This document shows positions 35,910 to 54,591 of a DNA stretch of 64,000 nt, piece after piece. The stretch covers positions 186,001-250,000 of the forward strand of contig NZ_JAJNDA010000003.1 of assembly GCF_021026295.1 (NCBI RefSeq), read 5' to 3'. Under the pieces are notes generated by a model that saw nothing but the letters and a program-made list of their open reading frames with translations, had not been told where the DNA came from and made no database searches. The DNA comes from Actinomycetospora soli (lineage in GTDB: Bacteria; Actinomycetota; Actinomycetes; Mycobacteriales; Pseudonocardiaceae). Each line of letters begins with the position of its first letter. The first letter of the stretch is position 1. Both the position numbers and the translations under genes were made by a program.

Positions 35910-35992
35910 TGAGAGGGGGACCCCACACCGGACGCCGGTGGAATCGCGCACCACGACATGGCACGCTCAACGACGTGCGTGCACTGGACCCG

Positions 35993-36058
35993 ATGCTCGT
36001 CGGTCGACCCCATGTCGACCTGGGCTACGTGTCGAGCGCGCTCTGCCCGGCGTGCTGA
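35993..36058 (+). CDS. Cysteine-type leader peptide of the sulfite reductase operon
   Basis: ATG 35993 to TGA 36056-36058 encodes a 21-residue peptide containing G-R-P-H-V-D-L-G-Y-V-S-S-A-L-C-P-A-C. The R-P-H-V-D-L ... S-A-L-C pattern is that of actinobacterial leader peptides found before sulfur genes, in which Cys codons are read near the end. An in-frame GTG at 35975 is an alternative start. The sir gene begins 109 bp downstream. Control of the operon by charged Cys-tRNA or translation of the leader is inferred. Confidence 0.75.
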   Translation: MLVGRPHVDLGYVSSALCPAC

Positions 36059-36068
36059 GGCACCGCCG
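36048..36068 (+). promoter_or_regulatory. Candidate attenuator hairpin over leader stop
   Basis: CGGCGTGC pairs with GCAC and GCCG (one bulged C) around the TGAG loop. The left arm contains the last Cys codon and the loop the stop codon of the leader peptide. Confidence 0.5.
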
Positions 36069-36167
36069 CTGACGCCCACGAGGGCACCCACCACCACGAT
36101 CGTCAGCAGGCGCGCGCGACCCGCCGTCGGGAACGCGTGTGCCTGCGTCTGTGAGGACGCACCACCG

Positions 36168-37940
36168 ATGACCAGCGCCCCGTCCAGCGAAGGTGCCACG
36201 ACGCCCGAGCAGTCGTACGCCGAGACCACCTCCGTCGGCATGCGCGGTGACGTGGAGGACAAGCCCGTCAAGGCCGCCCCGAAGCGCGCCCGCAAGGGCA
36301 AGGCCGAGGGCCAGTGGGCGCTGGGCTACCGGGAGCCGCTCAACAAGAACGAGCAGTCCAAGAAGGACGACAACCCGCTCAACGTGCGGGCCCGGATCGA
36401 GAACATCTACGCCCACCGCGGCTTCGACTCCATCGACCCGGCCGACCTGCGCGGGCGGTTCCGGTGGATGGGTCTCTACACCCAGCGCGCCGAGGGCTTC
36501 CCCGGCACGGACACCGGGCACGTCGAGGAGGAGGAGCTCGACGCGTCGTACTTCATGCTCCGGGTCCGCGTCGACGGCGGCGCGCTGACCACCGAGCAGC
36601 TGCGCGTCATCGGCGAGATCTCCCAGACCTTCGCGCGCGACACCGCCGACGTCACCGACCGCGAGAACATCCAGTTGCACTGGATCCGCGTCGAGGACGT
36701 CCCGGAGATCTGGCGCCGCCTCGAGGGCGTCGGCCTGACGACGACGGAGGCCTGCGGCGACTGCCCGCGCGTCATCCTCGGCTCGCCGGTCGCCGGCATC
36801 AGCGCCGACGAGATCATCGACGGCACGTCCGCGATCGACGAGATCGCCGCGAAGTACATCGGTGACCGGTCGCTGTCGAACCTCCCCCGCAAGTTCAAGA
36901 CCGCGATCTCGGGTCAGCAGGACGTGGCGCACGAGGTCAACGACGTCAGCTTCGTCGGGGTGAACCACCCTGAGCACGGCCCGGGCTTCGACCTGCACGT
37001 CGGCGGCGGGCTCTCCACCAACCCGAAGCTCGCCGTCCGCCTCGGCGCGTGGGTGCCGCTCGAGGAGGTGCCGGACGTCTGGCACGCCGTCGTCTCGGTG
37101 TTCCGTGACTACGGCTACCGCCGGCTGCGCACCCGCGCCCGGATCAAGTTCCTCATCGCCGACTGGGGCCCCGAGAAGTTCCGGCAGGTCATGGAGGACG
37201 AGTACCTGCACCGGAAGATGCTGGACGGTCCCGCCCCCGAGGCCATCGCCGGCACGATCGACCACGTCGGCGTGCACGACCAGGTCGACGGCCGCAAGTA
37301 CGTCGGCGTCGCCCCTCCCGCGGGGCGGACCTCGGGCTCGACGCTGGTGGGCGTCGCGAAGGCCGCCGAGGACGTCGGGTCCACCCGCATCCGCCTCACG
37401 CCGTACCAGAAGATCGTCGTCCTCGACGTCGCCGAGGAGAAGGTCGACACCCTGACGACGGCGCTCGACCACCTCGGGCTGCCGGCGCGCCCGAGCGTCT
37501 TCCGCCGCTCGACGATGGCCTGCACCGGCCTGGAGTTCTGCAAGCTCGCGTTCGTCGACACCAAGAACCGGGCCGGTGACCTCGTCACCGAGCTCGAGCA
37601 GCTCTGCGCGGACGTCGCGCCGGAGCTCGACACGCCGATCTCGATCCACCTCAACGGCTGCCCGAACTCGTGCGCGCGGGTGCAGGTCGCCGACATCGGT
37701 CTCAAGGGCCAGATCGTGAACGACGCCGACGGCAACCCGGCCGCCGGCTTCCAGGTGCACCTCGGCGGCGGGCTCGGCCTCGACTCCGGATTCGGGCGCA
37801 AGCTGCGCGGCCACAAGGTCCTCTCGGCCGAGCTCGGCCCCTACGTCGAGCGCCTGGTCCGGGCCTTCGTCTCCGACCGGAACGACGGCGAGCGCTTCGC
37901 CCAGTGGGTGCTCCGGGCGGAAGAAAGCCGGCTGCAGTGA
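36168..37940 (+). CDS. sir: Ferredoxin-dependent assimilatory sulfite reductase
   Basis: The 590-residue sirohaem/[4Fe-4S] enzyme reduces sulfite to sulfide with six electrons from ferredoxin. The two halves of the nitrite/sulfite reductase fold are visible. Cluster cysteines occur as A-C-T-G-L-E-F-C near 452 and G-C-P-N-S-C near 498, and substrate-side basic residues lie in R-E-N-I-Q-L-H-W near 166. It resembles mycobacterial SirA. ATG at 36168 lies behind GAGGA. Its stop overlaps the small zinc-ribbon gene by 4 nt. Confidence 0.92.
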   Translation: MTSAPSSEGATTPEQSYAETTSVGMRGDVEDKPVKAAPKRARKGKAEGQWALGYREPLNKNEQSKKDDNPLNVRARIENIYAHRGFDSIDPADLRGRFRWMGLYTQRAEGFPGTDTGHVEEEELDASYFMLRVRVDGGALTTEQLRVIGEISQTFARDTADVTDRENIQLHWIRVEDVPEIWRRLEGVGLTTTEACGDCPRVILGSPVAGISADEIIDGTSAIDEIAAKYIGDRSLSNLPRKFKTAISGQQDVAHEVNDVSFVGVNHPEHGPGFDLHVGGGLSTNPKLAVRLGAWVPLEEVPDVWHAVVSVFRDYGYRRLRTRARIKFLIADWGPEKFRQVMEDEYLHRKMLDGPAPEAIAGTIDHVGVHDQVDGRKYVGVAPPAGRTSGSTLVGVAKAAEDVGSTRIRLTPYQKIVVLDVAEEKVDTLTTALDHLGLPARPSVFRRSTMACTGLEFCKLAFVDTKNRAGDLVTELEQLCADVAPELDTPISIHLNGCPNSCARVQVADIGLKGQIVNDADGNPAAGFQVHLGGGLGLDSGFGRKLRGHKVLSAELGPYVERLVRAFVSDRNDGERFAQWVLRAEESRLQ

Positions 37941-38065
37941 GGTTGGCGATCCAGTACTGCCCCTACTGCGGCGAGCAGGACCTGCGCCCCCGGGAGACGC
38001 CCGAGAACGCCTGGGAGTGCGCCGACTGCCGCAGCACCTTCGTCGTCTCAGGAGTGGCCGCATGA
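37937..38065 (+). CDS. Small zinc-ribbon protein of the sulfate assimilation operon
   Basis: The 42-residue ORF (GTG 37937 to TGA 38065) overlaps sir by 4 nt at its start and cysH by 4 nt at its end. It encodes Q-Y-C-P-Y-C-G and, 20 residues later, W-E-C-A-D-C-R. These two CxxC knuckles make a rubredoxin-like or zinc-ribbon fold. Embedding between sir and cysH with overlaps on both sides argues that it is real and works with them, perhaps as an electron carrier or assembly factor (inference). Confidence 0.75.
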   Translation: MRLAIQYCPYCGEQDLRPRETPENAWECADCRSTFVVSGVAA

Positions 38066-38781
38066 CCAGCATCGAGGACCGGACCCGGGCCGACGCCCTG
38101 GCCGCCGGGGAGCGCTTCGCCGCGCTCGAGGGCACGACGGACCACGTCGAGCTCACCCGGCAGATCCTGGCGTGGGCCGCCGAGACGTACGGCGACCGGT
38201 TGATCGTGGCGTCGAACATGCAGGACGCCGTGCTGGTGAAGCTCGGCGCCGAGGCCCGCCCCGGCGTCGACGTGCTCTTCCTCGAGACGGGCTACCACTT
38301 CGCCGAGACGCTCGGGACCCGCGACGCCGTCGCGCAGGTCTACGGGGTGAACATCGTCGAGGCGCACCCGGAGCGCACCGTCGCCGAGCAGGACGCCGAG
38401 TTCGGGAAGAACCTCTTCGCCACCGACCCGGGTGCCTGCTGCGACATGCGCAAGGTCGTGCCCCTGAAGCAGACCCTCGCGCGCTACGACGCCTGGGTGA
38501 CCGGCGTGCGCCGCGTCGAGGCGCCGACCCGCGCGACCACCCCACTGGTCACGTGGGACGAGAAGCACGGGCTGGCGAAGGTCAACCCGATCGCGCACTG
38601 GACCGACGAGCAGATGGACGCCTACATCGCCGAGAACGCGGTGCTGGTGAACCCGCTGGTCGGCGAGGGCTACCCCTCGATCGGCTGTCAGCCGTGCACG
38701 GCCAAGCCGGCGCCCGGCGCCGACCCGCGCAGCGGCCGCTGGGCGGGCTTCACCAAGACCGAATGCGGGCTGCACGGATGA
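38062..38781 (+). CDS. cysH: Adenylyl-sulfate (APS) reductase
   Basis: The 239-residue protein reduces APS to sulfite. It carries the [4Fe-4S] Cys pairs C-C-D-M-R-K near 129 and G-C-Q-P-C near 214 that mark APS-type enzymes rather than PAPS-type enzymes. The catalytic Cys is in the C-terminal E-C-G-L-H-G. The start ATGA overlaps the zinc-ribbon stop and the end ATGA overlaps cysD. Confidence 0.93.
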   Translation: MTSIEDRTRADALAAGERFAALEGTTDHVELTRQILAWAAETYGDRLIVASNMQDAVLVKLGAEARPGVDVLFLETGYHFAETLGTRDAVAQVYGVNIVEAHPERTVAEQDAEFGKNLFATDPGACCDMRKVVPLKQTLARYDAWVTGVRRVEAPTRATTPLVTWDEKHGLAKVNPIAHWTDEQMDAYIAENAVLVNPLVGEGYPSIGCQPCTAKPAPGADPRSGRWAGFTKTECGLHG

Positions 38782-39692
38782 CGGCGACGCTCCCGACGAC
38801 GGGTACCGATCAGCTGGACGTCCTCGAGTCCGAGGCGATCCACGTCATGCGCGAGGTCGCCGGCGAGTTCGACCGCCCGGTGATCCTCTTCTCCGGCGGC
38901 AAGGACTCCATGCTGCTGGTGCACCTCGCGCACAAGGCGTTCTGGCCCGCGCCGATCCCGTTCCCGGTGCTGCACGTCGACACCGGGCACAACTTCGACG
39001 AGGTCATCGCGTTCCGCGACGCCGTCGTCGAGCGGTACGGGCTGACCCTCGAGGTCGCGAGCGTCCAGGACTACATCGACGACGGACGGCTGTCCGAGCG
39101 CGCCGACGGCACCCGCAACCCGCTCCAGACGACGCCGCTGCTCAACGCGATCGCCGACCACCGCCACGACGCGGTGTTCGGCGGTGGTCGCCGCGACGAG
39201 GAGCGGGCCCGCGCGAAGGAGCGCATCTTCTCGCTGCGCACCGCCTTCGGGGCGTGGGAGCCGTCGCGGCAGCGCCCCGAGCTGTGGAACCTCTACAACG
39301 GGCGCCACAAGCCGGGCGAGCACGTGCGCGTGTTCCCGCTGTCGAACTGGACCGAGCTCGACGTCTGGCGCTACATCCAGCGCGAGGAGATCGACCTGCC
39401 CTCGATCTACTACGCCCACACCCGCGACGTGTTCGCCCGCGACGGCATGTGGCTGACGTCGGGTCCCTGGGGCGGTCCGCGCGACGGCGAAGAGGTCATC
39501 ACGAAGACCGTGCGCTACCGCACCGTCGGCGACGGCTCGTGCACGGGCGCGGTCGAGTCGACCGCGACCACGCTCGACGAGGTGCTCGCCGAGGTCCGTG
39601 AGTCCCGGCTGACCGAGCGCGGCGCCACCCGCGCCGACGACCGGCTCTCCGAGGCCGCCATGGAAGATCGCAAGAAGGAAGGCTACTTCTGA
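38778..39692 (+). CDS. cysD: Sulfate adenylyltransferase subunit 2
   Basis: The 304-residue ATP sulfurylase small subunit makes APS from sulfate and ATP. The PP-loop F-S-G-G-K-D-S near 39, D-T-G-H-N-F-D-E near 70 and the C-terminal K-K-E-G-Y-F are typical. It forms a complex with CysN, whose gene begins 2 nt after its stop. Confidence 0.95.
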   Translation: MTATLPTTGTDQLDVLESEAIHVMREVAGEFDRPVILFSGGKDSMLLVHLAHKAFWPAPIPFPVLHVDTGHNFDEVIAFRDAVVERYGLTLEVASVQDYIDDGRLSERADGTRNPLQTTPLLNAIADHRHDAVFGGGRRDEERARAKERIFSLRTAFGAWEPSRQRPELWNLYNGRHKPGEHVRVFPLSNWTELDVWRYIQREEIDLPSIYYAHTRDVFARDGMWLTSGPWGGPRDGEEVITKTVRYRTVGDGSCTGAVESTATTLDEVLAEVRESRLTERGATRADDRLSEAAMEDRKKEGYF

Positions 39693-39693
39693 C

Positions 39694-40971
39694 ATGACCG
39701 ATCTCCTGCGGCTCGCGACGGCGGGCTCGGTCGACGACGGCAAGTCCACGCTCGTCGGTCGGCTGCTCTACGACACCAAGTCGGTCCTGGCCGACCAGCT
39801 CGAGGCCGTCGAGCGCGCGTCGAAGAGCGCCGACGGCGAGCCCGACCTGTCGCTGCTGGTCGACGGCCTGCGCTCGGAGCGGGAGCAGGGCATCACGATC
39901 GACGTGGCGTACCGCTACTTCGCGACGCCGAGGCGGTCCTTCGTCCTCGCCGACACCCCCGGCCACGTGCAGTACACCCGCAACACCGTCACCGGGGCGT
40001 CCACCGCGGCGCTCGCGGTGCTGCTGGTCGACGCGCGGCACGGCGTCGTCGAGCAGACCCGTCGTCACGCCGCGGTCATGGCCCTGCTGCGGGTGCCGCG
40101 GCTCGTGCTCGCCGTCAACAAGATCGACCTCGTGGACTACGACGAGTCGACCTACCTGACGATCGCCAAGGAGTTCCGCGACCACACCGCGGCCCTCGGG
40201 TACGCCGAGGACGCCGTCGTGACGATCCCGGTGTCGGCGAAGAAGGGCGACAACGTGGTGCTGGAGTCCGAGCGGACTCCCTGGTACGACGGCCCGACGC
40301 TGCTCGACCACCTCGAGACCGTGCCGGTCGACGGCCCGGACGACGCGGCGCCGTTCCGCTTCCCGGTGCAGACCGTGATCCGGCCGCGCTCGGCCGAGCA
40401 CCCCGACTACCGCGGCTACGCGGGCCTGGTCGCGGCCGGCTCGGTGTCGGTGGGCGACGAGGTCGTCGTGCTCCCCGACGGGCAGCGCACCACGGTCGAG
40501 GGCATCGACCGGTACACCGCGTCGCTCTCCTCGGCGTCCGCGGGCGACAGCGTGGTGCTGCGGCTGGCGCACGACCTCGGCATCGCCCGCGGCGCCGTGC
40601 TCGTGGCGGCCGCGTCGGCACCGGAGCCGGTCACCGAGTTCACCGCGACCCTCGCGTGGCTGCACGACAAGCCGCTCACGCCCGGGCGCCGGCTGCTGGT
40701 CAAGCACGGGACGCACACCGTGCAGGCCATGATCACGGCCGTCGAGGACCGGCTGGACATCCAGACCCTCGCCCTCGACGCCGACCCGGGCACGCTCGAG
40801 ATCAACGACATCGGCCACGTCGCGATCACCGTGGCCGAGCCGCTGCCGCTCGACGACTACGACCGCGTCGCCGCCACCGGGTCGTTTCTGGTCATCGACC
40901 CGCAGGCGGGCGACACGCTCGCCGCGGGTCTGGTCGGGCGGCCGCTGGTGACGACGCCGGTGGACGCCTGA
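39694..40971 (+). CDS. cysN: Sulfate adenylyltransferase subunit 1 (GTPase)
   Basis: The 425-residue GTPase drives APS synthesis. G1 is G-S-V-D-D-G-K-S-T near 10-18, G3 is D-T-P-G-H near 88 and G4 is N-K-I-D near 143, followed by two beta-barrel domains. The protein stops before any CysC-like kinase, so APS is not routed to PAPS here, which fits the APS-type CysH. The operon appears to end at the hairpins that follow. Confidence 0.95.
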   Translation: MTDLLRLATAGSVDDGKSTLVGRLLYDTKSVLADQLEAVERASKSADGEPDLSLLVDGLRSEREQGITIDVAYRYFATPRRSFVLADTPGHVQYTRNTVTGASTAALAVLLVDARHGVVEQTRRHAAVMALLRVPRLVLAVNKIDLVDYDESTYLTIAKEFRDHTAALGYAEDAVVTIPVSAKKGDNVVLESERTPWYDGPTLLDHLETVPVDGPDDAAPFRFPVQTVIRPRSAEHPDYRGYAGLVAAGSVSVGDEVVVLPDGQRTTVEGIDRYTASLSSASAGDSVVLRLAHDLGIARGAVLVAAASAPEPVTEFTATLAWLHDKPLTPGRRLLVKHGTHTVQAMITAVEDRLDIQTLALDADPGTLEINDIGHVAITVAEPLPLDDYDRVAATGSFLVIDPQAGDTLAAGLVGRPLVTTPVDA

Positions 40972-40981
40972 CCCTGCTGTT

Positions 40982-41032
40982 GAGCGAAGGGCCCCTTCGG
41001 TCGAGTAGGTCGACCGGAGGGGCCCTTCGCTC
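40982..41032. repeat. 51-bp hairpin element C, copy 1
   Basis: GAGCGAAGGGCCCCTTCGGT and the rest of the arm pair with GACCGGAGGGGCCCTTCGCTC around a short loop. It starts 11 bp after cysN. An inverted copy lies at 41145-41195. It can serve as terminator for cysN. Confidence 0.85.
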
Positions 41033-41144
41033 GTGTCGGGCCCGGGCCGGGTGGTCCGCGAGTGGCACACCACGCAGGTCCGGGCGGCCCGCGACCTGCC
41101 CCAGTGACCACTCGCGAAGACCGGGCCGGCCCGCCGTCGGGCAC

Positions 41145-41195
41145 GAGCGAAGGGCCCCCTCGGTCGATCTACTCGACCGAAGGAGCCCTTCGCTC
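41145..41195. repeat. 51-bp hairpin element C, copy 2 (inverted)
   Basis: In reverse it reads GAGCGAAGGGCTCCTTCGGT and onward, nearly identical to copy 1, including part of the GTG-C/T-CGGGC flank. It starts 15 bp past the convergent carbonic anhydrase stop. Between the copies (41033-41144) a further inverted repeat (GGTCCGCGAGTGG / CCACTCGCGAAGACC) is present and no gene. Confidence 0.85.
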
Positions 41196-41210
41196 AGAAC
41201 GACACCGGGA

Positions 41211-41699
41211 TCAGTTGACCTCGTTCAGCTTCCCGGTCGCCACGTCGATGACGAAGCCACGCACCGAGTTCTTGTTCTTGATGAACGGGCTGTCGGTGAT
41301 CCGCTTGATGGAGTCGCGGACGTCCTGCTCGGCGTCGGGGAACGCGTTCGCGGTCCACGAGGGGCGCTCGCCGGACTCCTTCTCGAGGATGTCGGCGAAC
41401 TGCTCGTCGGTGAACGTGACCATGCCGCAGTCGGTGTGGTGGATGAGGATGATCTCCTCGGTCCCCAGCAGGTGCTGCGAGATCGCGAGCGAGCGGATGG
41501 TGTCGTCGGCGACGATCCCGCCCGCGTTGCGGATGACGTGCGAGTCGCCCTCCCTCAGGCCGAGCGCGCCGTAGGGGTTCACGCGGGCGTCCATGCAGGC
41601 GACGACGGCGGTCTTGCGGGCAGGCGGCAGGGGCAGCTCGCCGGGGAAGTTCGCGACGTAGGTCTCGTTGTTCTTCAGGTAGTCGTCGGTGACCGACAC
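41211..41699 (-). CDS. Beta-carbonic anhydrase
   Basis: The 162-residue enzyme is of the mycobacterial CanA (Rv1284) type. The zinc ligands are the Cys of A-C-M-D-A-R near 34-39 and the His and Cys of H-H-T-D-C-G near 87-92. The D-x-R dyad is intact, and the end V-A-T-G-K-L-N-E-V is characteristic. GTG at 41699 has GAGAGGAA upstream. It lies convergent to the cysDN genes, an association also known from Mycobacterium. Confidence 0.92.
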   Translation of the reverse strand: MSVTDDYLKNNETYVANFPGELPLPPARKTAVVACMDARVNPYGALGLREGDSHVIRNAGGIVADDTIRSLAISQHLLGTEEIILIHHTDCGMVTFTDEQFADILEKESGERPSWTANAFPDAEQDVRDSIKRITDSPFIKNKNSVRGFVIDVATGKLNEVN

Positions 41700-41778
41700 G
41701 ACGGGGTTCCTCTCAGGGGTTCGACCAGGACACGACGGCACGGACCGGCCGCGGAGACACGCGGGGACGGATGCGGGC

Positions 41779-41883
41779 TCACGCGGCCCGGCGACACCAC
41801 TGGTCGAACTCCTGCACGCGGCGGCTCGGCCAGAAGGCCATGAGCCCGAAGACCCGGAGGTCACCTGCGCGCATGCGCATCAT
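41779..41883 (-). CDS. Possible small ORF (34 aa)
   Basis: ATG 41883 to a stop at 41779 would encode M-M-R-M-R-A-G-D-L-R-V-F-G-L-M and then F-W-P-S-R-R-V-Q-E-F-D-Q-W-C-R-R-A-A. The Trp/Arg-rich end looks protein-like, but the RBS is weak. It fills part of the 230-bp gap between the carbonic anhydrase and the next leader peptide. Confidence 0.25.
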   Translation of the reverse strand: MMRMRAGDLRVFGLMAFWPSRRVQEFDQWCRRAA

Positions 41884-41929
41884 TCGACCGCACCTGCGGT
41901 GAGGGATGCAAGGAACTACGGTGTCCGCG

Positions 41930-42001
41930 ATGACCGGCTGGCTGCTCGTCGTACGCGAGCACATCGACCTGCTGCTGGTCGCCTCCGCGCTGTGTCGGTA
42001 G
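41930..42001 (+). CDS. Cysteine-type leader peptide of the MFS/monooxygenase operon
   Basis: ATG 41930 to TAG 42001 encodes 23 residues ending E-H-I-D-L-L-L-V-A-S-A-L-C-R. This is the same H-[VI]-D-L ... S-A-L-C-R motif as the leader before sir. TACGGT at 41917-41922 fits a leaderless transcript starting at this ATG. The Cys codon TGT is the second-last codon. An inverted repeat (GTCGGT at 41994-41999 with ACCGAC at 42020-42025, plus inner GGG/CCC) covers this codon and the stop, like an attenuator. The transporter starts 37 bp later. Confidence 0.75.
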   Translation: MTGWLLVVREHIDLLLVASALCR

Positions 42002-42038
42002 GGACCCGTCCGCTCCCCCACCGACCTCGGAGACCCGT

Positions 42039-43346: not shown

Positions 43347-43390
43347 GGGGAACCCTCGGACCACAAGAGCGCTCTTGTCCTCCCCTCGCG
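43341..43390. repeat. 50-bp palindromic element A, copy 2
   Basis: It starts GCGTGAGGGGAACCCTCGGA and ends TCCTCCCCTCGCG around the inner palindrome AAGAGCGCTCTT. It supplies the stop codon of the MFS gene and lies just upstream of the RBS of the next gene. Confidence 0.88.
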
Positions 43391-43404
43391 AACGGAGCAA
43401 CGCC

Positions 43405-47005: not shown

Positions 47006-47034
47006 TTGTGTGATCGCTGCCACAGGCGTAGGGC
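47006..47034 (+). promoter_or_regulatory. Promoter of Lsr2-like gene
   Basis: TTGTGT (47006-47011) and TAGGGC (47029-47034) are separated by 17 bp and lie about 26 bp before the ATG at 47060. Confidence 0.45.
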
Positions 47035-47059
47035 TGGGCGACGACCCCAGGAGGTGTCC

Positions 47060-47254: not shown

Positions 47255-47311
47255 GGAAGGTTCGACGGTCCCGGTTCGTTGTGCACGACGAAGTCGAGAG
47301 AAGGGACCTTC

Positions 47312-47836: not shown

Positions 47837-47847
47837 CGCGCACGTCA

Positions 47848-47881
47848 CCTCGGGTTGTCGGGTTCGTCCGACGACCCGAGG
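47848..47881 (+). terminator. msrA terminator hairpin
   Basis: CCTCGGGTTGTCGG pairs with CCGACGACCCGAGG (14 bp with one G-T pair, 6-nt loop) 12 bp after the msrA stop. Confidence 0.75.
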
Positions 47882-47891
47882 ATGAACACCC

Positions 47892-48377
47892 ATGACGGCC
47901 GACCACCCGTGCCTGCTCACGCAGCGCCGTCACGTCGACCAGCGGTGCCTCCGGCTCGTGTGCACTCCTCCGTTCTCTGACGCGGATGAGTACCCACGAG
48001 CCGGAGGCACCTCCTTTGTCCATCACCGCTCATTGGTTCCTGCCCACCTACGGCGACTCCCGCGGCCTCGTCGGCGGCGGACACGGCATGGCCGCTGCGG
48101 CCGCGGGCACGCCCCGCGAGGCGTCGCTCGGCTACCTCGCCCAGATCGCCCGCGCCGCCGAGACCGTCGGCTTCGAGGGTGCGCTCACGCCCACCGGTGC
48201 GTGGTGCGAGGACGCGTGGCTCACCACCGCCATGCTCGCCGCCGAGAGCGAGCGCCTGAAGTTCCTCGTCGCGTTCCGTCCCGGCGGCACCTCCCCCACG
48301 CTCGCCGCGCAGATGGGCGCCACCTTCCAGCGCCACTCCGGCGGTCGGCTGCTGGTCAACGTCGTCACCGGCGGTGA
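47892..48377 (+). CDS. Cys-type leader ORF reading into the SsuD gene
   Basis: The ATG at 47892 starts M-T-A-D-H-P-C-L-L-T-Q-R-R-H-V-D-Q-R-C-L-R-L-V-C. This is the R-R-H-V-D leader motif with Cys codons at 47910, 47946 and 47961. Unlike the other leaders it meets no stop codon and stays open, out of frame with SsuD, to 48377. Only the first 25 or so codons look selected; the rest is probably a by-product of G+C-rich sequence. Ribosomes that continue would cross the SsuD RBS and start, so coupling or occlusion is possible. Confidence 0.45.
   Translation: MTADHPCLLTQRRHVDQRCLRLVCTPPFSDADEYPRAGGTSFVHHRSLVPAHLRRLPRPRRRRTRHGRCGRGHAPRGVARLPRPDRPRRRDRRLRGCAHAHRCVVRGRVAHHRHARRRERAPEVPRRVPSRRHLPHARRADGRHLPAPLRRSAAGQRRHRR
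47944..48011 (+). promoter_or_regulatory. 17-bp perfect hairpin holding the SsuD Shine-Dalgarno
   Basis: GGTGCCTCCGGCTCGTG (47944-47960) is the exact inverse of CACGAGCCGGAGGCACC (47995-48011). The left arm encodes the Cys-rich end of the leader; the right arm contains GGAGG (48003-48007), the best RBS for the TTG at 48016. The hairpin would hide that RBS unless leader translation keeps it open. Confidence 0.75.
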
Positions 48378-49191: not shown

Positions 49192-50495
49192 CCGCGACGG
49201 CCGACACCACCGTCCCGTCCGCCGGCAGCCGCGAGGGCCGCACGGTCCTCGCGGCCTCGCTCATCGGCACGACGATCGAGTGGTACGACTTCTTCCTCTT
49301 CGCCACCGCCGCCGGGATCGTCTTCCCGCAGCTCTTCTACGGCAACGGCGACCCGACGGTCGCGACCCTGCTCTCGTTCGCCACCTTCGCGATCGGGTTC
49401 GTCGCCCGCCCCATCGGCGGGCTGATCTTCGGCCACATCGGCGACCGCGTCGGCCGCCGCAGCACGCTCATCGTGACGATGGCTCTCACCGGGCTCTCCA
49501 CCGCGGCGATCGGCCTGCTGCCCACGTACGCCGCGATCGGCGTCGCCGCGCCGATCCTGCTCGTGCTGCTCCGTGTCATCCAGGGCATCGCGATCGGCGG
49601 CGAGTGGGGCGGCGCCGTGCTCATGGCCGTCGAGTACGCGCCACCGGGGAAGCGCGGCCTCTACGGGGCGACCCCGCAGATCGGCCTCGGGCTGGGCCTC
49701 GCACTGGGCACCGGCGCGTTCGCGCTGCTCGGAGCGGTGATGGACGACCAGGCGTTCCTCGACTACGGCTGGCGCATCGCGTTCGTCGCCAGCGTCGTCC
49801 TCGTCGTCATCGGGTTCGTCGTCCGGCTCGCCGTGCTCGAGACCCCGGCCTTCCGCCGCATGCAGGAGTCGGCGGAGGTGTCGCGCGTCCCGGTGGTCGA
49901 CGTCGTGCGCGACCCGGAGTCGCGCCGGAACCTCGGCTTCGGCCTGCTCGCCCGCTGGGCCGAGGGCGCGTCGTTCAACACCTGGGGCGTCTTCGTCCTC
50001 ACCTACACCGTGTCGACGCTGAAGCTGCCGCGCTCGGAGATGCTGATCGCGGTGACCGTGGCGGCCGTGGTGAGCGCCTTCGTCGTGCTGCTGGCCGGGT
50101 TCCTCGGCGACCGCATCGGCCGCGGCCGGGTGTTCGCGATCGGCTGCGCGATCCTCGCCGTCGGGGTGTTCCCGGCCTTCGCGCTGCTCGGGACGGGGTC
50201 GACGGTCGTCGTCGGGCTCGTGCTGATCGTGATGCTCGGGATCTCCTACGGGCTGACCAGCGGCGCCGAGTCGACGTTGTTCGCCGAGATCTTCCCGACG
50301 CGGACCCGCTACACCGGCATGTCGCTCGCCTTCCAGGGCGGCGGGATCTACGCCTCCGGGCTCACCCCGCTGATCCTCACCTCCCTGCTCGCCCTCGGCG
50401 GCGGCGCACCCTGGTACGCGGCGGGCTACCTGTTCGTCGCGGCACTCGTCAGCATCTGGGCCGCGCTGAAGGCCCGGCCGCTCGAGCACCTGTAG
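49188..50495 (+). CDS. MFS transporter, MHS family (putative sulfonate importer)
   Basis: The 435-residue, 12-helix symporter has the MHS motifs T-T-I-E-W-Y-D-F-F near 28 and G-H-I-G-D-R-V-G-R-R near 80. R-V-I-Q-G-I-A-I-G-G-E-W-G-G lies near 126. It is related to the transporter at 42039. Coupling to SsuD by an ATGA overlap makes sulfonate uptake the best guess, in place of the usual SsuABC importer (inference). A long hairpin follows its stop. Confidence 0.85.
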   Translation: MTATADTTVPSAGSREGRTVLAASLIGTTIEWYDFFLFATAAGIVFPQLFYGNGDPTVATLLSFATFAIGFVARPIGGLIFGHIGDRVGRRSTLIVTMALTGLSTAAIGLLPTYAAIGVAAPILLVLLRVIQGIAIGGEWGGAVLMAVEYAPPGKRGLYGATPQIGLGLGLALGTGAFALLGAVMDDQAFLDYGWRIAFVASVVLVVIGFVVRLAVLETPAFRRMQESAEVSRVPVVDVVRDPESRRNLGFGLLARWAEGASFNTWGVFVLTYTVSTLKLPRSEMLIAVTVAAVVSAFVVLLAGFLGDRIGRGRVFAIGCAILAVGVFPAFALLGTGSTVVVGLVLIVMLGISYGLTSGAESTLFAEIFPTRTRYTGMSLAFQGGGIYASGLTPLILTSLLALGGGAPWYAAGYLFVAALVSIWAALKARPLEHL

Positions 50496-50550
50496 GCGAG
50501 CGAGCGGCACTGTCGCAGCATCTGTGTGCGCGACAGTGCCGTTCGTTCGC
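50496..50550. terminator. Bidirectional hairpin between convergent genes
   Basis: GCGAGCGAGCGGCACTGTCGC (50496-50516) pairs at 19 of 21 positions with 50530-50550 around a 13-nt loop. It begins at the MFS stop and lies before the convergent LLM stop. Confidence 0.8.
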
Positions 50551-50564
50551 GTCGGAAGCGCCCG

Positions 50565-51707
50565 TCAGGCCGCCACGGCCCCGACCGCATCGGCGAGCAG
50601 CTCGTAGCTGCGCACCCGGTCGGCGTGCTCGGTGGTGATCGTCGTGATCAGCAGTTCGTCCGCGCCGACCGCGTTGACCAGCGTCGACAGGCCCGCCCGG
50701 ACCGTGCACGGCGAGCCGACGAACTGGGTGTCGACGCGGTCGGCCACCCCGGTGCGCTCGGCGTCCGACCATCGCCGCGCGCGGGCCTGCGCCGGCGTGA
50801 CGTACGGGTGCGCGCCGCGACCGGTGCGGATGTCGAGGACCCACTGCCCGTAGGGCGCGGCGAGCTCGCGGGCGGCCGCGTCGGAGTCCGCCACGACCAC
50901 GTCGGCCGAGACCATGACATGGGGCCGATCCAGGCGCTCCGACGGCCGGAACGCCGCGCGGTACGCGGCCACCGTCTCGAGCACCGTCGTCGGCAGCGTG
51001 TGGTAGTTGACCGCGAACGGCAGGCCCAGTTCGCCGGCGGTCTGCGCGCTCACCCCCGGGCTGGACCCGAGGATCCACACGTCGAGGTCGGCACCCTCGG
51101 CGGGCAACGCGTGCAGCGGCGCCCCGTCGTCGCGAACGGCCGTCCCACGGATGTACGAGAGGATCTCCAGCACCTGCGCGCGGTGGTCGGGCGCGTCGCC
51201 GTCGATGCCGAACCGCTCGGCGAGCGAGGCGAACGTCGACAGGTCCGCCCCGGGCACCCGGCCCGGGCTGGGGATGAGCAGCCCCTCGACGTGGCGTGAC
51301 GGCGGTGGGGGCGGGGCGTCCGACGCCGGCGCCGACCGCTCCCGGATGCGCGCCAGGATCTTGTGGATGTCGAACCGACCGAGCCCGAGGTCGACCCGGC
51401 CGGGGTGGACCGCGGCGACCGTGCCGAACTGCTCGGCGATCTGCAACGGCGGGGTCATCGGCATCTGCACCGCGCCCGACCCCACCCGGATCGCGCGGGT
51501 CGCGCTCGCGACCAGCGCGGCGAGCACCGGTGTGGACGACGAGGCGACGCCCGGGTTCAGATGGTGTTCGGCCACCCAGTACCGGCGGTAGCCGGCCGCC
51601 TCGGCGACACGGGCGAGGTCGATCGTGTTCCGCAGGGCGTCGGCGGAGGTGCCGCCGGCCGGGACGGGGCCGAGGTCGAGGATCGAGAGCGGGACGGACG
51701 AGGGCAC
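50565..51707 (-). CDS. LLM-class flavin-dependent oxidoreductase (MsnO8/LuxA-like)
   Basis: The 380-residue protein is a luciferase-like oxidoreductase with L-S-I-L-D-L-G-P-V at the start, W-V-A-E-H-H-L-N-P-G near 46 and R-V-G-S-G-A-V-Q-M near 76. P-G-R-V-D-L-G-L-G-R near 103 is also seen. The A-E-H-H motif groups it with the bacterial-luciferase-like family, many members of which desulfonate. GTG at 51707 has GGAAGG upstream. A leader ORF with R-R-H-V-D-L starts 104 bp before it and overlaps its start out of frame. Confidence 0.82.
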   Translation of the reverse strand: MPSSVPLSILDLGPVPAGGTSADALRNTIDLARVAEAAGYRRYWVAEHHLNPGVASSSTPVLAALVASATRAIRVGSGAVQMPMTPPLQIAEQFGTVAAVHPGRVDLGLGRFDIHKILARIRERSAPASDAPPPPPSRHVEGLLIPSPGRVPGADLSTFASLAERFGIDGDAPDHRAQVLEILSYIRGTAVRDDGAPLHALPAEGADLDVWILGSSPGVSAQTAGELGLPFAVNYHTLPTTVLETVAAYRAAFRPSERLDRPHVMVSADVVVADSDAAARELAAPYGQWVLDIRTGRGAHPYVTPAQARARRWSDAERTGVADRVDTQFVGSPCTVRAGLSTLVNAVGADELLITTITTEHADRVRSYELLADAVGAVAA

Positions 51708-51811
51708 GGTGCACCTTCCGGGCGGGCGGGGACGGGGGCCGTCCCCGGACTCACCGCGCTCGCCGTCCGCACCAGATCGACGTGCCGGCGCAGGGTGCCG
51801 TGTCGGAGCAT
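51557..51811 (-). CDS. Leader ORF with R-R-H-V-D-L motif, no Cys in the usual place
   Basis: The ATG at 51811 encodes M-L-R-H-G-T-L-R-R-H-V-D-L-V-R-T-A-S-A-V-S-P-G. This has the leader motif, but Ser follows S-A-V where the others have Cys. The frame then stays open into the LLM gene to 51557. As with the ORF at 47892, only the first 20 or so codons look selected. A 9-bp perfect stem (51727-51735 with 51739-51747) lies between the motif and the LLM RBS. Confidence 0.4.
   Translation of the reverse strand: MLRHGTLRRHVDLVRTASAVSPGTAPVPARPEGAPCPRPSRSRSSTSAPSRPAAPPPTPCGTRSTSPVSPRRPATAGTGWPNTI
51727..51747 (-). promoter_or_regulatory. Candidate attenuator hairpin before LLM gene
   Basis: On the minus strand CGGGGACGG and CCGTCCCCG form a perfect 9-bp stem with a 3-nt loop, about 20 nt before the LLM start at 51707. 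Confidence 0.55.
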
Positions 51812-51839
51812 CCCGGGTCCCTCTCGCTCGACGCCGTGG

Positions 51840-52154
51840 TCAGCGCCCGCGCAAGCGGTCCGCGGCGAGCAGGAGCGCGGCGTGCGCCTCCTCCACGTCG
51901 GCCGCCGTCAGGTAGGCGCAGGCGATCGTCACGGCGGGCACCGCGTCCGACGGGCCGAGCGTCAGCTGCTCGTCGAGAGCGGCGCGCAAGGTGGTCTCGA
52001 CGGTGCGGCACCGCGCCCAGCGCTCACGGGCGCCCTCGGAGTCGAGCCCCTGCAACTGCCGGATTCCGGCGGCGACGGCCCGCTCGAGCGGGTCGCGCAC
52101 GCCGGTCCGGCGGCGGGTGGTGACGGTCGGCGTGGCAGGACGGGACGTGGGCAC
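51840..52154 (-). CDS. Small helical protein behind a Cys leader
   Basis: The 104-residue, Ala/Arg-rich, probably all-helical protein contains E-G-A-R-E-R-W-A-R-C-R-T-V-E-T-T-L-R-A-A-L-D and A-C-A-Y-L-T-A-A-D-V-E-E-A-H-A-A-L-L-L. No family is recognised. GTG at 52154 follows GTGAGGAAC. It lies between two leader peptides on the minus strand, so a link to sulfur metabolism is likely but not proven. Confidence 0.55.
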   Translation of the reverse strand: MPTSRPATPTVTTRRRTGVRDPLERAVAAGIRQLQGLDSEGARERWARCRTVETTLRAALDEQLTLGPSDAVPAVTIACAYLTAADVEEAHAALLLAADRLRGR

Positions 52155-52190
52155 AGCGGTTCCTCACGGCGGGGCCCCGGAAGGGCCGAC

Positions 52191-52224
52191 GGGTCGGACG
52201 GCGAGCTCAGCTCGCCCGACACCC
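52191..52224 (-). promoter_or_regulatory. Candidate attenuator hairpin over leader stop
   Basis: GGGTCGG and GCGAGC pair with GCTCGC and CCGAC-CCC around a 3-nt loop. The stem covers the Cys codon and stop of the leader peptide that ends at 52207. Confidence 0.6.
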
Positions 52225-52290
52225 CGCGGAGACGACGCGCAGCAGATCGACGTACGTGCGGCGCACGAGTCGCGATCCGGGTCCCGTCAC
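52207..52290 (-). CDS. Cysteine-type leader peptide
   Basis: GTG 52290 to TGA 52207 encodes 27 residues ending L-V-R-R-T-Y-V-D-L-L-R-V-V-S-A-G-C-R-A-S. The R-R-x-[HY]-V-D-L ... S-A-x-C-R pattern matches the leaders before sir and the MFS operon. GAGTGAG lies upstream. It precedes the 104-residue protein gene by 53 bp, and a hairpin overlaps its end. Confidence 0.7.
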   Translation of the reverse strand: MTGPGSRLVRRTYVDLLRVVSAGCRAS

Positions 52291-52361
52291 GTCACTCACT
52301 CTGACACGGACGGGGCACCCACCACCAGAGCGACCCCGCGACCTGCGCACGCCGCCCGCCG

Positions 52362-53318
52362 CTACGACGGGACGACGGTGACCGGGGACGCCGGGGTGGA
52401 TCCGGTCCGGGCCCGCAGCTCCCCGAGCACGGCGAGCGTGCGCGCCCGTTCCTCCGCCGTCCCGACCGGACTCACGTTGAGGTCGGTCGCCCCGGCGTCG
52501 GCGTACTGCGCGAGGCCCGCCGCCAGCGCCGCCTCGTCCCCGACGACCGCGATGTCGCCCGGCGAGGCGAAGCCGTCACGCGCGAGCACGGCGGCGTACG
52601 ACGGCAGCCGTGCGTAGGCGGCGTAGTCCGCAGCGACCTCGGCGCGCACCCGCTCCGGCTCGTCGGTCAGCGCGACGGGCACCCCGACGACGATCCGCCG
52701 CGGCTCCCCCGCCGCCGCTGCCGACAGCCGGGGCACCACGTGCTCGCCGATGGTGCGCGGCCCGGACAGGAACGTGATGGTGCCGGACGTGCGCTCCCCG
52801 GCGAGGGCGAGCATCACCGGCCCGAGCGCCCCGAGCAGCAGCGGCACCCGCGGCTCGGCGCCGGGTACGGCGGTGTCGGTCGCGGACGAGCCCACGCCGC
52901 TCGAGCCGGGCACCGACCGGTCGTCGAGGATCGGCTCCAGCACGTCGAGGTGCGCGCGCAGCGCCGCCACGGGCCGCTCGAACGGCACCCCGTAGACCTC
53001 GAGCAGGCCGGGGTGGCTCACCCCGAGTCCCAGTGCGAGCCGACCGTGCGAACCCGCCTGCACCGTCAGCGCCTGCGCAGCCAGCACCCGCGGGTGGCGT
53101 GGCTGCACGACGACGACCGAGGCGCCCAGCTCCACCCGCGACGTCTCCCGGGCCAGCGCCGCGTACGTCGTCAGCGTGTCGAAGCCGTACCCCTGCGGCA
53201 GCCACACGGTGTCCAGCCCCGCGTCCTCGACGGCCCGCGCACGGGCCGCGAGTTCGTCGACGAGGTGGTACGCCGTGGCGGGCAGGCCGGCGGCGATGTT
53301 CACTCCGATCCGGATCAT
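52362..53318 (-). CDS. LLM-class F420-dependent oxidoreductase (TIGR03564-like)
   Basis: The 318-residue protein starts M-I-R-I-G-V-N-I-A-A-G. It has T-V-W-L-P-Q-G-Y-G-F-D near 38, R-V-E-L-G-A-S-V-V near 61 and H-G-R-L-A-L-G-L-G-V-S-H near 92, the layout of the F420-dependent TIGR03564 group. The electron donor would be F420H2. It is divergent from an HTH regulator (47 bp), which may control it. Confidence 0.8.
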   Translation of the reverse strand: MIRIGVNIAAGLPATAYHLVDELAARARAVEDAGLDTVWLPQGYGFDTLTTYAALARETSRVELGASVVVVQPRHPRVLAAQALTVQAGSHGRLALGLGVSHPGLLEVYGVPFERPVAALRAHLDVLEPILDDRSVPGSSGVGSSATDTAVPGAEPRVPLLLGALGPVMLALAGERTSGTITFLSGPRTIGEHVVPRLSAAAAGEPRRIVVGVPVALTDEPERVRAEVAADYAAYARLPSYAAVLARDGFASPGDIAVVGDEAALAAGLAQYADAGATDLNVSPVGTAEERARTLAVLGELRARTGSTPASPVTVVPS

Positions 53319-53365
53319 GCGACCGAGGCTGCGGGGACGACCGCGGCGGAACCAGGAGTCCGACG

Positions 53366-54121
53366 GTGACAGCCTCGACCCACGCCCGCCGACGGGAGCT
53401 CGGACGCTGCGTCCGGTCCTACCGCGAGCTGGTGACGCCGGGCGCGGTCGGGCTGCCCGTCGGCGACCGACGTCGCACCCCGGGCCTGCGCCGCGAGGAG
53501 GTCGCGGCGCTCGCCGGGGTCGGGATCAGCTGGTACACGTGGCTCGAGCAGGGCCGGGTCGCCGCGTCCGAGCAGGTCGTCGACGCCGTCGGCCGGGTGC
53601 TCGGCATCGACGACGTCGGCCGCGGACACCTCCGGGCACTCGCGCATCCGCCGACCTTGCTCCCGACCGTGCCACCGAGCACGCCGCTCGGGGGCCCGGA
53701 CGGCCTGCGCCCGCTCCTCGCGAGCTGGTCGAGCCACCCCGCCGTGCTGCTCGACGCGCGCCTCGACGTGGTCGCCGGCAACGAGGCCTGGGCGGACGCG
53801 TTCGGTCCGGGCACCGGCCGCTCGGTGCTCGCGGCGCTGCTCGACCGTCCCGACGCCGCCGACCTCCTCACCGCGATCGCCCGCCGCCTTCGCATGGTCG
53901 GCAACCTGCTGCCCGACGACGAGCGCATCGCCCGCGTCCGCGACCGCGCCCGCGCCGCCGCCCCCGCCCTGACACCGCTGTGGGAGTGCCGTGCGGTCGG
54001 GGCGTTCGGGCGACCGCGGGTATGTCTGGGCGGGGTCGAGCGGGACGCGTACCTGCTCGGTGAGGCGGGCGCCCCCGACGTCGTCGAGGCCTCGGTGCTG
54101 GTCCTGCTCCCGGCGCCGTGA
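53366..54121 (+). CDS. XRE-family regulator with MmyB-like ligand domain
   Basis: The 251-residue protein has an N-terminal helix-turn-helix containing R-R-T-P-G-L-R-R-E-E-V-A-A-L-A-G-V near 35-52 and S-W-Y-T-W-L-E-Q-G-R. A PAS-like MmyB ligand domain (D-A-R-L-D-V-V-A-G-N-E-A-W near 130, N-L-L near 178) follows. Such regulators commonly sit beside oxidoreductases that they control. GTG at 53366 has AGGAG 8 nt upstream. It is divergent from the F420-type LLM gene. Confidence 0.82.
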   Translation: MTASTHARRRELGRCVRSYRELVTPGAVGLPVGDRRRTPGLRREEVAALAGVGISWYTWLEQGRVAASEQVVDAVGRVLGIDDVGRGHLRALAHPPTLLPTVPPSTPLGGPDGLRPLLASWSSHPAVLLDARLDVVAGNEAWADAFGPGTGRSVLAALLDRPDAADLLTAIARRLRMVGNLLPDDERIARVRDRARAAAPALTPLWECRAVGAFGRPRVCLGGVERDAYLLGEAGAPDVVEASVLVLLPAP

Positions 54122-54350
54122 TCCCGACGCCAGGCCTCATCGCGGCGCGGACGGTCCGGGAGGTCGGCCTCGGATGTCTCCCTGCCCGCTCCCGCCTCGG
54201 CGGGTGCGATCCCCGGCGAGTGGTGTCAGGAATCGGGACTCGGGCGTCCGAATCCGCTCCGTCCCGCGATTCCGCCACACGGACCGTGAACGGGACGCCC
54301 GGTCCGTGACCGAGCGTGAGTGGCCACGTGCGCTGTGACCCCGGCAACGG
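54122..54350. other. Intergenic region with two hairpins, no gene seen
   Basis: The stretch between the XRE gene and the riboswitch promoter holds two inverted repeats. The first is GGAATCGGGAC (54229-54239) with GTCCCGCGATTCC (54261-54273); the second is CACGGACCG (54278-54286) with CGGTCCGTG (54300-54308). They could end the XRE transcript. No protein-like ORF is convincing here. Confidence 0.6.
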
Positions 54351-54381
54351 TTGACAGATCACGGGTCCGACTTCCTAGAGT
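54351..54381 (+). promoter_or_regulatory. Promoter of the SAM-riboswitch operon
   Basis: A consensus TTGACA (54351-54356) is followed by TAGAGT (54376-54381). The 19-bp spacer is slightly long; reading the -10 box as CCTAGA gives 17 bp. The riboswitch begins about 8 nt downstream. Confidence 0.7.
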
Positions 54382-54388
54382 CCTCCTC

Positions 54389-54484
54389 AGCCATCCCGAG
54401 CGGCCGAGAGACCTGGCTCCCTGACGCCGCAGCAACCCCCCGCAGCACCGCGGGTGAGGGTGCTCATGCCAGGACCGATGGGAG
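54389..54484 (+). ncRNA. SAM riboswitch (S-box, SAM-I type)
   Basis: The conserved S-box core is plain: GAGCGGCCGAGAGACCTGGC, then TGACGCC, GCAACC (P2/P3 core) and GGTGC-TCATGCCAG on the 3' side. P1 pairs CCATC (54391-54395) with GATGG (54477-54481). SAM riboswitches shut off methionine, cysteine and sulfur-uptake genes when SAM is plentiful. The 3' P1 strand runs into GGGAG (54480-54484), the RBS of the leader peptide at 54490, so SAM binding would directly block leader translation. Confidence 0.9.
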
Positions 54485-54489
54485 ACCGC

Positions 54490-54591
54490 ATGCGCACGGA
54501 CCGGGACGTCGTCCTGCGCTGCGAGCACCGCGGGAGCTACCGCCGCCACGTCGACCTGCAGCGGGTCGCGAGCGCGGTCTGTCGGGCCTGA
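54490..54591 (+). CDS. Cysteine-type leader peptide under SAM riboswitch
   Basis: ATG 54490 to TGA 54591 encodes 33 residues ending R-R-H-V-D-L-Q-R-V-A-S-A-V-C-R-A. This is the full leader motif with the Cys codon TGT three codons before the stop (an earlier Cys is at residue 11). GGGAG lies 5 nt upstream, at the base of the riboswitch. A perfect 11-bp hairpin begins over the TGT codon. The arrangement suggests that the operon reads SAM first and Cys supply second (inference). Confidence 0.8.
   Translation: MRTDRDVVLRCEHRGSYRRHVDLQRVASAVCRA

Follow-up and report, generated by a model that had tools for sequence, protein, structure and literature searches.

In arrest peptides, TnaC and SecM among them, conserved residues lie at a fixed distance from the stall codon, and polycysteine leaderless short ORFs of mycobacteria were reportedly described by Canestrari in 2020. 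In the relevant passages of two papers (PMC13236596, PMC9094748), the mycobacterial polycysteine ORFs precede sulfur operons, are partly leaderless, and are proposed to act by cysteine-responsive attenuation. The cys-operon part of Seliverstov 2005 (PMC1262725) presents candidate leader peptides with Cys runs in Mycobacterium, Propionibacterium, and Bifidobacterium. Riboswitch-controlled upstream ORFs (uORFs) of M. tuberculosis are described in passages on B12/ppe2 (PMC11260477) and Mbox/pe20 (PMC12810186).

Leaders in the Window

In an earlier note, six leader peptides were described in the window (the whole 64,000-nucleotide stretch of DNA analysed). The translations at their starts read as described, and the leader class was already known, as stated there. 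The peptides were compared with the NCBIfam profile NF042934 (cis_reg_atten, "putative leader peptide"), which has a cut-off of 27 bits. Five of the six matched, one of them at or above the cut-off (the leader starting at 54490) and four at 19.9-26.0 bits; genome-wide, among the 27 matches listed with E of 10 or less, 5 exceeded it. The sensor Cys codon of the family is located nine codons past the Asp of the RxHVDLxR motif, a position referred to here as +9.

Four leaders are clear family members. The leader at 35993..36058 (+), MLVGRPHVDLGYVSSALCPAC, scored 26.0 bits, is located upstream of sir (sulfite/nitrite reductase family), and has UGC at +9 (36044-36046, +). The leader at 41930..42001 (+), MTGWLLVVREHIDLLLVASALCR, with 21.0 bits and UGU at 41993-41995 (+), precedes an MFS transporter and a gene with a DszC-like acyl-CoA dehydrogenase fold. 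The GTG-started leader at 52207..52290 (-), RTYVDLLRVVSAGCRAS, scored 19.9 bits, has UGU at 52221-52219 (-), and lies upstream of a 104-aa protein for which a Pfam search gave no match. The leader at 54490..54591 (+), MRTDRDVVLRCEHRGSYRRHVDLQRVASAVCRA, reached 33.3 bits, has UGU at 54580-54582 (+), and is situated behind a SAM-I riboswitch.

The remaining two lack Cys at +9, and the equality of the six copies did not hold for them. The leader at 51749..51811 (-), MLRHGTLRRHVDLVRTASAVS, upstream of an MsnO8-type LLM monooxygenase (25.3 bits), has Ser (AGT/AGU) at the Cys position of the other leaders; its frame is open for 84 codons, and the Ser form is kept in two sister species. The ORF at 47892..47966 (+), RRHVDQRCLRLVC, upstream of SsuD, is a remodelled leader relative with no match to NF042934. 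It has ACT at +9 and no nearby stop, and its frame stays open for 161 codons and runs across the SsuD start. At the same site, the leader is canonical (RRHVDL...C) in three sister species and remodelled, as here, in one. The leaders are short ORFs located directly ahead of a metabolic gene; 47892 and 51811 do not form closed short ORFs. Counted over core and tail, the window leaders contain one or two Cys, with no run of Cys codons.

Genomic Distribution of the Leaders

The earlier note had counted six copies within 19 kb and had proposed a whole-genome motif search. That search showed the count to be too low: the genome has at least 20 leaders, a lower bound given by an HMM scan that scored 150 of 269 candidates. 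They comprise 18 Cys-type leaders, one stop variant, and one Ser variant, with 47892 excluded. Seventeen are located within 88 kb (C33:221990-309674) between hemW and lepA, mostly next to sulfate, sulfonate, and organosulfur genes, in a large sulfur-nutrition gene island whose full extent had escaped the earlier note. The claim of sulfur-linked targets stood for most leaders; two precede genes without an identified family, and one target (behind 309642) is not evidently sulfur-linked. The density, which had been called notable, is not special to the present genome, as other genera of the host's family have 8-14 matches per genome (e.g., G115, G133, and G149).

Leaders were conserved in 18/18 genomes of the genus, 187/200 of the family, and 150/246 of the class. 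For the profile scan, loci were fetched with their neighbourhoods by means of the leader HMM (185 sequences, 1.33 Mb). It revealed 202 leaders with an in-frame start and a stop within 20 codons, and at the final threshold the reversed sequences gave none. In the genus-level set (n = 193), 107 leaders had one Cys codon, 68 had two, and 18 had three. Taken together, family membership, the genome set, the sulfur-linked targets of most leaders, and conservation lend good support to the earlier proposal of a cis-acting sulfur regulon of Cys leaders.

The Putative Sensor Codon at +9

A feature overlooked in the earlier note is a fixed UGU codon. In a scan blind to Cys, this residue was found at +9 in 159/165 genus, 45/45 family, and 71/72 class leaders, with one case in the reversed control; the class set (n = 72) consists of leaders from families of the class other than the host's. 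The codon at +9 was UGU in 145/168 genus, 27/45 family, and 72/72 class leaders, against a background UGU share in genes of 6%, 11%, and 11%, respectively. In the core and tail of these leaders, Cys codons at other positions were split between UGC and UGU as 88/5, 12/3, and 95/26. In a leader-independent set fetched via the downstream LLM protein, a leader preceded the LLM gene at 24 of 80 loci, and all 24 had UGU.

In the host's taxonomic family, the UGC exceptions are concentrated at sir, MFS, and TauE-like genes. In the genus, sir leaders had UGC in 17/17 cases by eye and 15/15 by pattern. The rule that sir leaders always have UGC was abandoned, with 13 UGC and 7 UGT by pattern in the wider family and UGT in 3/3 Streptomyces cases.

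The deviation from synonymous usage was 2.9-3.2 bits at +9 as compared with 0.00-0.35 bits at H, V, D, L, and R+3. Outside +9, a signal was seen at R at -4 (0.67 bits) and R at -3 (0.54 bits) in the genus and at S at +6 (1.23 bits) in the class. As far as codon usage indicates, RxHVDLxR is conserved mainly at the peptide and not the RNA level, which suggests a nascent-chain-assisted stall.

These data bear on plain codon counting, in which any Cys codon suitably spaced from the stop would serve, UGU would be favoured for its slower wobble reading, and the peptide would be irrelevant. The polycysteine leaders of the order (L185-L190), several of which have UGU at two or more sites, are in line with it, as is the ribosome-footprint distance between the +9 codon and the pairing excess given below. 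Yet these same leaders always have UGU at +9 while their other Cys codons vary, and the peptide is kept, with normal synonymous usage, at a fixed distance to the codon. We consider this explanation unlikely.

Leaders without Cys at +9

In the Cys-blind scan, all seven Cys-less leaders had UGA precisely at +9. Stops at +9 were found in six species at one locus and in Streptomyces; L329, L363, and L364 also have them, and the codon is UGA, once UAG (L364). Some stop-type leaders (L086, L096, and L329) have no Cys codon at all. In Streptomyces, SAM-IV riboswitches precede stop-type leaders. Ser occurs at +9 in three species of the genus and in seven of eight Streptomyces matches, which were chosen for lacking Cys, and Gly and Pro forms were also found. 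The rule that +9 is always Cys or stop was dropped once the Ser, Gly, and Pro forms appeared, and the idea that UGA is a nucleotide relic of UGU was weakened by the UAG of L364. Pure Cys-tRNA sensing does not explain the conservation of the stop, Ser, Gly, and Pro forms.

TnaC is an arrest peptide that responds to tryptophan. By analogy, RxHVDLxR might sense a small sulfur metabolite and stall the ribosome at +9 whatever the codon (UGU, UGA, UAG, AGU, or AGC), without being centred on Cys-tRNA. The precise position of the stops and the leaders devoid of Cys codons fit such a metabolite sensor; the UGU in 72/72 class leaders, however, points to the codon itself, and the copies with a stop or Ser could be in decay or have been re-purposed. 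We regard it as quite unlikely.

Downstream RNA Structure

The earlier note reported an inverted repeat in at least five of the six elements. As a significant feature, this was not upheld. A helix can be drawn for 41930, 51811, 52290, and 54490, but compared with mononucleotide shuffles, only 54490 gave a better fold (z -3.0; others -1.1 to +0.6). The hairpin of this leader, GTCTGTCGGGC/GCCCCGACAGAC (54577..54605, +), begins at the sensor codon, and its stem base is preserved by eye in two sister species. When 205 leaders were folded against dinucleotide shuffles, the mean z was -0.62, and 30/205 had z < -2. With this share, and one of six elements in the window, the downstream hairpin was rejected as a general feature and is a minor one only. 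A downstream palindrome ahead of SsuD was discarded as an attenuator, as it is a dispersed repeat. Downstream structure is weak both in bulk and in five of the six elements of the window, which counts against the best explanation proposed below.

An excess of complementarity was observed right after the sensor codon (peak 0.166 vs. 0.057). Pairing of UGU with downstream RNA was rejected as the explanation of the codon, which itself shows no excess beyond small values. This also speaks against UGU being an RNA-level signal and not a matter of decoding, e.g., a UGUC motif recognized by a binding protein or forming part of an alternative structure. Such a signal would agree with the C that follows UGU in 161/168 genus leaders despite a varying residue (R, P, or L) and with the AGU-C and GGU-C relics, but C follows UGU in only 53/72 class leaders and UGC is tolerated at sir genes; the explanation seems decidedly improbable. 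That the leader peptide is a trans-acting small signalling protein, as its peptide-level conservation might indicate, is hardly credible given about 20 slightly differing copies, each directly ahead of another unit, which fit cis action.

Putative Leaderless Starts

A TANNNT box 6-8 nt ahead of the in-frame start was found in 34/168 genus, 7/45 family, and 41/72 class leaders, as compared with 0/288, 0/95, and 1/99 control starts, respectively; no such -10 box was present in 134/168 genus leaders. In the window, leader 41930 has a TACGGT box 7 nt ahead of its start, which is compatible with leaderless initiation. Leader 54490 is not leaderless, since it has a Shine-Dalgarno sequence behind a riboswitch.

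The SAM-I Riboswitch Ahead of Leader 54490

This riboswitch, located immediately ahead of leader 54490, had also escaped the earlier note. The SAM-I aptamer (RF00162) at 54388..54484 (+) scored 51.7 bits against a gathering threshold of 44.4. Upstream, a promoter-like TTGACA (54351-54356) and TAGAGT (54376-54381) with a 19-nt spacer (54351..54381, +) was recognized by eye in three species. The 3' strand of aptamer helix P1 (GATGG) overlaps the Shine-Dalgarno sequence GGGAG (54480-54484) of the leader. Downstream of the composite, an NtaA/DmoA-type LLM monooxygenase is encoded at 54640..55883 (+). In the present assembly, this gene has an apparent frame shift near 55260-55317.

Thirteen such composites and an atypical one (L356) were found in two genera. 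Eleven of the 14 scored above the gathering threshold, with L355, L356, and L360 below it. In all 14, a Shine-Dalgarno sequence lies in or overlaps P1; the ORF behind it is a leader in 13 and another short ORF in L356. A leader start 3-6 nt past the P1-overlapping Shine-Dalgarno sequence was present in 13/14 composites and in 0/46 other SAM-I aptamers. This arrangement suggests that leader 54490 may be a cysteine sensor gated by SAM.

Proposed Mechanism

On the sequence evidence, the NF042934 leaders are probably cis-acting cysteine sensors, one per sulfur-acquisition unit, which would work as separate attenuators with a common signal. We infer that a ribosome would translate the short ORF, which in a subset of leaders would have a leaderless start, and that with UGU (+9) in the A site the nascent RxHVDLxR would lie in the exit tunnel, about 5-12 residues up. 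When Cys-tRNA is scarce, the ribosome would stall at the +9 UGU, and its footprint would block an inhibitory RNA structure or termination downstream, so that the sulfur gene is turned on. With ample cysteine, the ribosome would complete the leader and the gene would stay low. In the case of 54490, the SAM-I aptamer would mask part of the Shine-Dalgarno sequence, and the leader would be translated, and able to sense cysteine, only at low SAM; the gene would come on when SAM and cysteine are low together, and not otherwise.

More tentatively, the leaders may be conditional arrest peptides, in which RxHVDLxR primes a stall at one wobble-read, tunable codon at +9, with a SAM-I gate in two genera; we put this forward as a possibility. 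A single UGU would then do the work of the several sensor codons usually found in a row. The choice of codon at +9 would be a matter of tuning, with UGU at scavenging genes and, in the host's taxonomic family, UGC at sir and at two types of transporter, and with stop or Ser where another signal has taken over. SAM-I and leader together would form an RNA-only gate, open when both SAM and cysteine are low and not otherwise. The composite would act as a natural logic gate with two metabolite inputs, joining the methionine branch of sulfur metabolism to the cysteine branch.

A synonymous codon that hardly varies, and whose spacing to a conserved peptide is fixed, offers a sharp, testable handle on the conservation of the peptide. 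In the literature searched, which was limited to open-licence papers, we found no description of the UGU register or of a SAM-Cys composite, and the literature searched gave no explanation for the conservation of the leader peptide. The +9 UGU register, the peptide-level conservation, and the SAM-I-leader composite appear new.

Comparison with Known Systems

The present leaders share with NF042934 (see also the Cys-rich leader peptides NF042936 and NF042933) the motif and the position before sulfur genes; the entry, as seen in the profile scan, is silent on the UGU register, the Ser and stop variants, and SAM gating. As in TnaC and SecM, conserved residues are placed at a fixed distance to a putative stall codon. 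In contrast to the mycobacterial polycysteine ORFs, as presented in the passages cited above, the leaders usually have one to three Cys codons, a conserved motif, and a fixed UGU; their polycysteine forms occur only in order-level relatives. With the leaders of Seliverstov 2005, as far as the cys-operon part of PMC1262725 describes them, they have in common Cys codons close to the stop and no obvious terminator. As in the M. tuberculosis cases, in the passages on B12/ppe2 and Mbox/pe20, a riboswitch at 54490 would govern translation of a small upstream ORF. Amino-acid sensing by the uORF is not described in those passages, whereas the gated ORF at 54490 is a Cys leader, which would give the element two inputs.

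Leader ORFs of the window and the genome

The predicted peptides of all six ORFs, translated from their starts at 35993, 41930, 47892, 51811, 52290 and 54490, agreed with the description in the earlier note. In an NCBIfam search with NF042934 ("putative leader peptide", cut-off 27 bits), 54490 scored 33.3 bits; 35993, 51811, 41930 and 52290 reached 26.0, 25.3, 21.0 and 19.9 bits, respectively, and 47892 gave no match. A Pfam search of the six peptides returned nothing useful. The six copies in 19 kb proved to be part of a larger set, as HMM and pattern scans of the A. soli genome (6.52 Mb, 69 contigs) detected at least 20 leaders, 47892 not counted. Eighteen of these have Cys at the sensor position, the ninth codon after Asp of RxHVDLxR (+9), one is a stop variant (C33:251007, C33 being contig NZ_JAJNDA010000003.1, on which the window spans 186001-250000) and one a Ser variant (window 51811, C33:237752). 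An island at C33:221990-309674 holds 17 of the 20; hemW (C33:220583-221818) stands at its left edge and lepA (C33:318085-320004) to its right, both identified above cut-off.

The first genes after the leaders putatively encode a sulfite/nitrite reductase family protein, MFS transporter, SsuD, MsnO8-type, NtaA/DmoA-type and CE1758-type LLM monooxygenases, DszC/SfnB-like protein, dodecin, alkanesulfonate monooxygenase-like protein, YeiH-type putative sulfate exporter, ABC permease, OsmC, APS kinase, NMT1 and family-3 binding proteins, and TauD. Elsewhere in the genome, leaders precede a putative rhodanese, acyl-CoA dehydrogenase fold protein and LLM. Because many of these NCBIfam matches fall below curated cut-offs, the substrates implied by the names are tentative. 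The small proteins after 52290 and after C33 position 309642 had no Pfam match. The island also contains cysH-cysD-cysN and CysK/CBS-like, cystathionine gamma-synthase-like and SufS-type desulfurase genes. A SAM-IV riboswitch (100.9 bits; L043 6024-6139, that is C33:255024-255139, minus strand) precedes the SufS-type cysteine desulfurase gene, an arrangement reported for Streptomyces lividans too.

NF042934 matches were found in 18/18 genus genomes (E up to 0.05), 187/200 family genomes and 150/246 class genomes, with 0/14 control genomes matched in each search; at E up to 10, 10 of the 14 controls gave matches, none above cut-off. In the family search, several other genera equalled Actinomycetospora in leader richness. 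A profile seeded with 18 A. soli leaders was scanned over 185 sequences (1.33 Mb) and yielded 202 leaders that have an in-frame start codon and terminate within 20 codons (0 in reversed sequences at the final threshold), a number which is not a density because the loci were mostly fetched via the leader HMM.

Sensor codon

The profile-based set favours Cys at +9 by construction. In a Cys-blind motif scan (R-x-[HAYF]-[VI]-D-[LFYH]-x-[RL], with a start and a stop each no more than 30 codons away; 282 leaders, 1 in the reversed control), Cys stood exactly at +9 in 159/165 genus, 45/45 family and 71/72 class leaders. The seven others all have UGA there, six of them belonging to a single orthologous locus. 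Among profile-based leaders, +9 was UGU in 145/168 genus, 27/45 family and 72/72 class leaders (the last from 68/70 class loci and 37 genera, by manual count), against a background UGU share of Cys codons of 6.1%, 11.0% and 10.8% in ORFs passing a GC3 filter. The remaining Cys codons of the same leaders, core plus tail, had UGC/UGU ratios of 88/5, 12/3 and 95/26, and in polycysteine and CxC leaders +9 is UGU with variable adjoining Cys codons. Among 80 named loci fetched independently of the leader, via the downstream LLM protein, a leader preceded the LLM gene in 24, all with UGU at +9, and none was detected there in 56. Six other ORFs matched in this set had UGT, UGA, UAG and three non-Cys codons at +9; two of the latter three look like chance matches.

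UGC at +9 was confined to few targets: of the 23 genus leaders with this codon, 17 stand before sir and 6 before an MFS transporter gene, and of the 18 in the family, 13 stand before sir and 5 before a TauE-like permease gene, the genes being named by eye from protein starts. UGU was also present in seven sir leaders of the family and three MFS leaders of the genus (pattern-named targets). Eight Streptomyces HMM matches, chosen for an early end, had Ser in seven (AGC 5, AGU 2) and UGA in one; a family-level match had Pro. The motif scan detected 8 of 11 ordinary matches (7 UGU, 1 UGC). In Streptomyces loci L324-L331 and L206, the Ser (AGC/AGU) or stop leader precedes a conserved gene, MSVTPLAA...FRGRIGRDARSGHY.

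Synonymous-codon deviation from background at +9 was 2.92 bits in the genus and 3.19 bits in the class, compared with 0.00-0.35 bits at H, V, D, L and R+3; other deviating sites were R-4 (0.67) and R-3 (0.54) in the genus and S+6 (1.23) in the class. This pattern of codon usage indicates that what is kept in the motif is chiefly the peptide, and in the sensor codon the nucleotides. Arg four before Asp is CGU/CGA in about 44% of cases in the genus-level set versus 8% in genes. With UGU in the A site, the motif would lie about 5-12 residues up the exit tunnel, a range in which characterised arrest peptides operate. A role of the nascent chain in the proposed stall is rated between about evenly likely and somewhat unlikely.

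Starts and downstream RNA

TANNNT precedes an in-frame ATG/GTG by 6-8 nt in 34/168 genus, 7/45 family and 41/72 class leaders and is almost absent elsewhere (out-of-frame control starts 0/288, 0/95 and 1/99), which supports leaderless starts in a subset. Complementarity with the downstream RNA peaks directly 3' of the sensor codon (0.166 vs 0.057 with swapped partners). Hairpins, which had been put forward at the leader ends, did not hold up as a general feature: folding of 205 leaders barely beat shuffles (mean z -0.62; 30 below -2). Shine-Dalgarno masking, a terminator and Rho are candidates for the output step. The leaders likely work by cysteine-sensing attenuation.

Many intergenic sites of the genus carry a dispersed palindromic repeat some 36-40 bp long (GAGCAC...GTGCTC, centre often GGTCGCTATAGCGACC, arms differing yet matching), among them window 19787-19822, L106 3151, L143 3077 and L148 7180; some of the 53 pattern matches in 2.24 Mb are due to chance.

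SAM-I aptamer before a Cys leader

A SAM-I aptamer (window 54388-54484, 51.7 bits) ends six bases before leader 54490, whose Shine-Dalgarno sequence GGGAG (54480-54484) overlaps the P1 3' strand. Within the genus, this composite occurs in 3/18 genomes, A. soli and two sister species. Seven further genomes, six from genus g5 and one from g3, were chosen for extra SAM-I matches or a leader-rich genus: a leader follows 11 of the extra aptamers retrieved from g5, and none follows two from g3. Three extra g5 aptamers had no locus of their own; one, visible in L358, also precedes a leader. Of the 14 composites, eleven pass the SAM-I gathering cut-off and the other three score lower. All 14 have P1 CCATC/GATGG with an overlapping Shine-Dalgarno, and the ORF that begins 3-6 nt after it is the leader in 13 and another short ORF in L356. 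The arrangement was found in 0/46 other SAM-I aptamers examined. The +9 codon is UGU in 11 composites (including the downstream leader of L356), UGC in two and GGU in one. Targets include three orthologues of the window LLM, three family-5 binding proteins, an ABC ATPase and three FAD oxidoreductases. From its anatomy alone, the composite is plausibly a two-signal gate for SAM and cysteine.

In the present assembly, the LLM gene after the window composite (54640-55883) has a frame change near 55260-55317; assembly error and decay are candidate causes. SAM-IV aptamers stand before stop-type leaders in two named Streptomyces, in one of them also before a UGU leader. Those at L363 1292-1437 and L364 1726-1871 (both minus strand) lie immediately 5' of stop-type leaders RLHIDLLRVSSAY, with UGA in one and UAG in the other and a motif part without a Cys codon.

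Relation to known systems

A search of open-licence papers found neither a fixed UGU register nor a SAM switch above a Cys leader. Canestrari, in 2020, is said to have described leaderless short ORFs responding to Cys in mycobacteria. The leader class itself was, as the earlier note held, already known: PMC1262725 describes leader peptides of cys operons in Actinobacteria. A uORF under riboswitch control is described for M. tuberculosis in PMC11260477 and PMC12810186.
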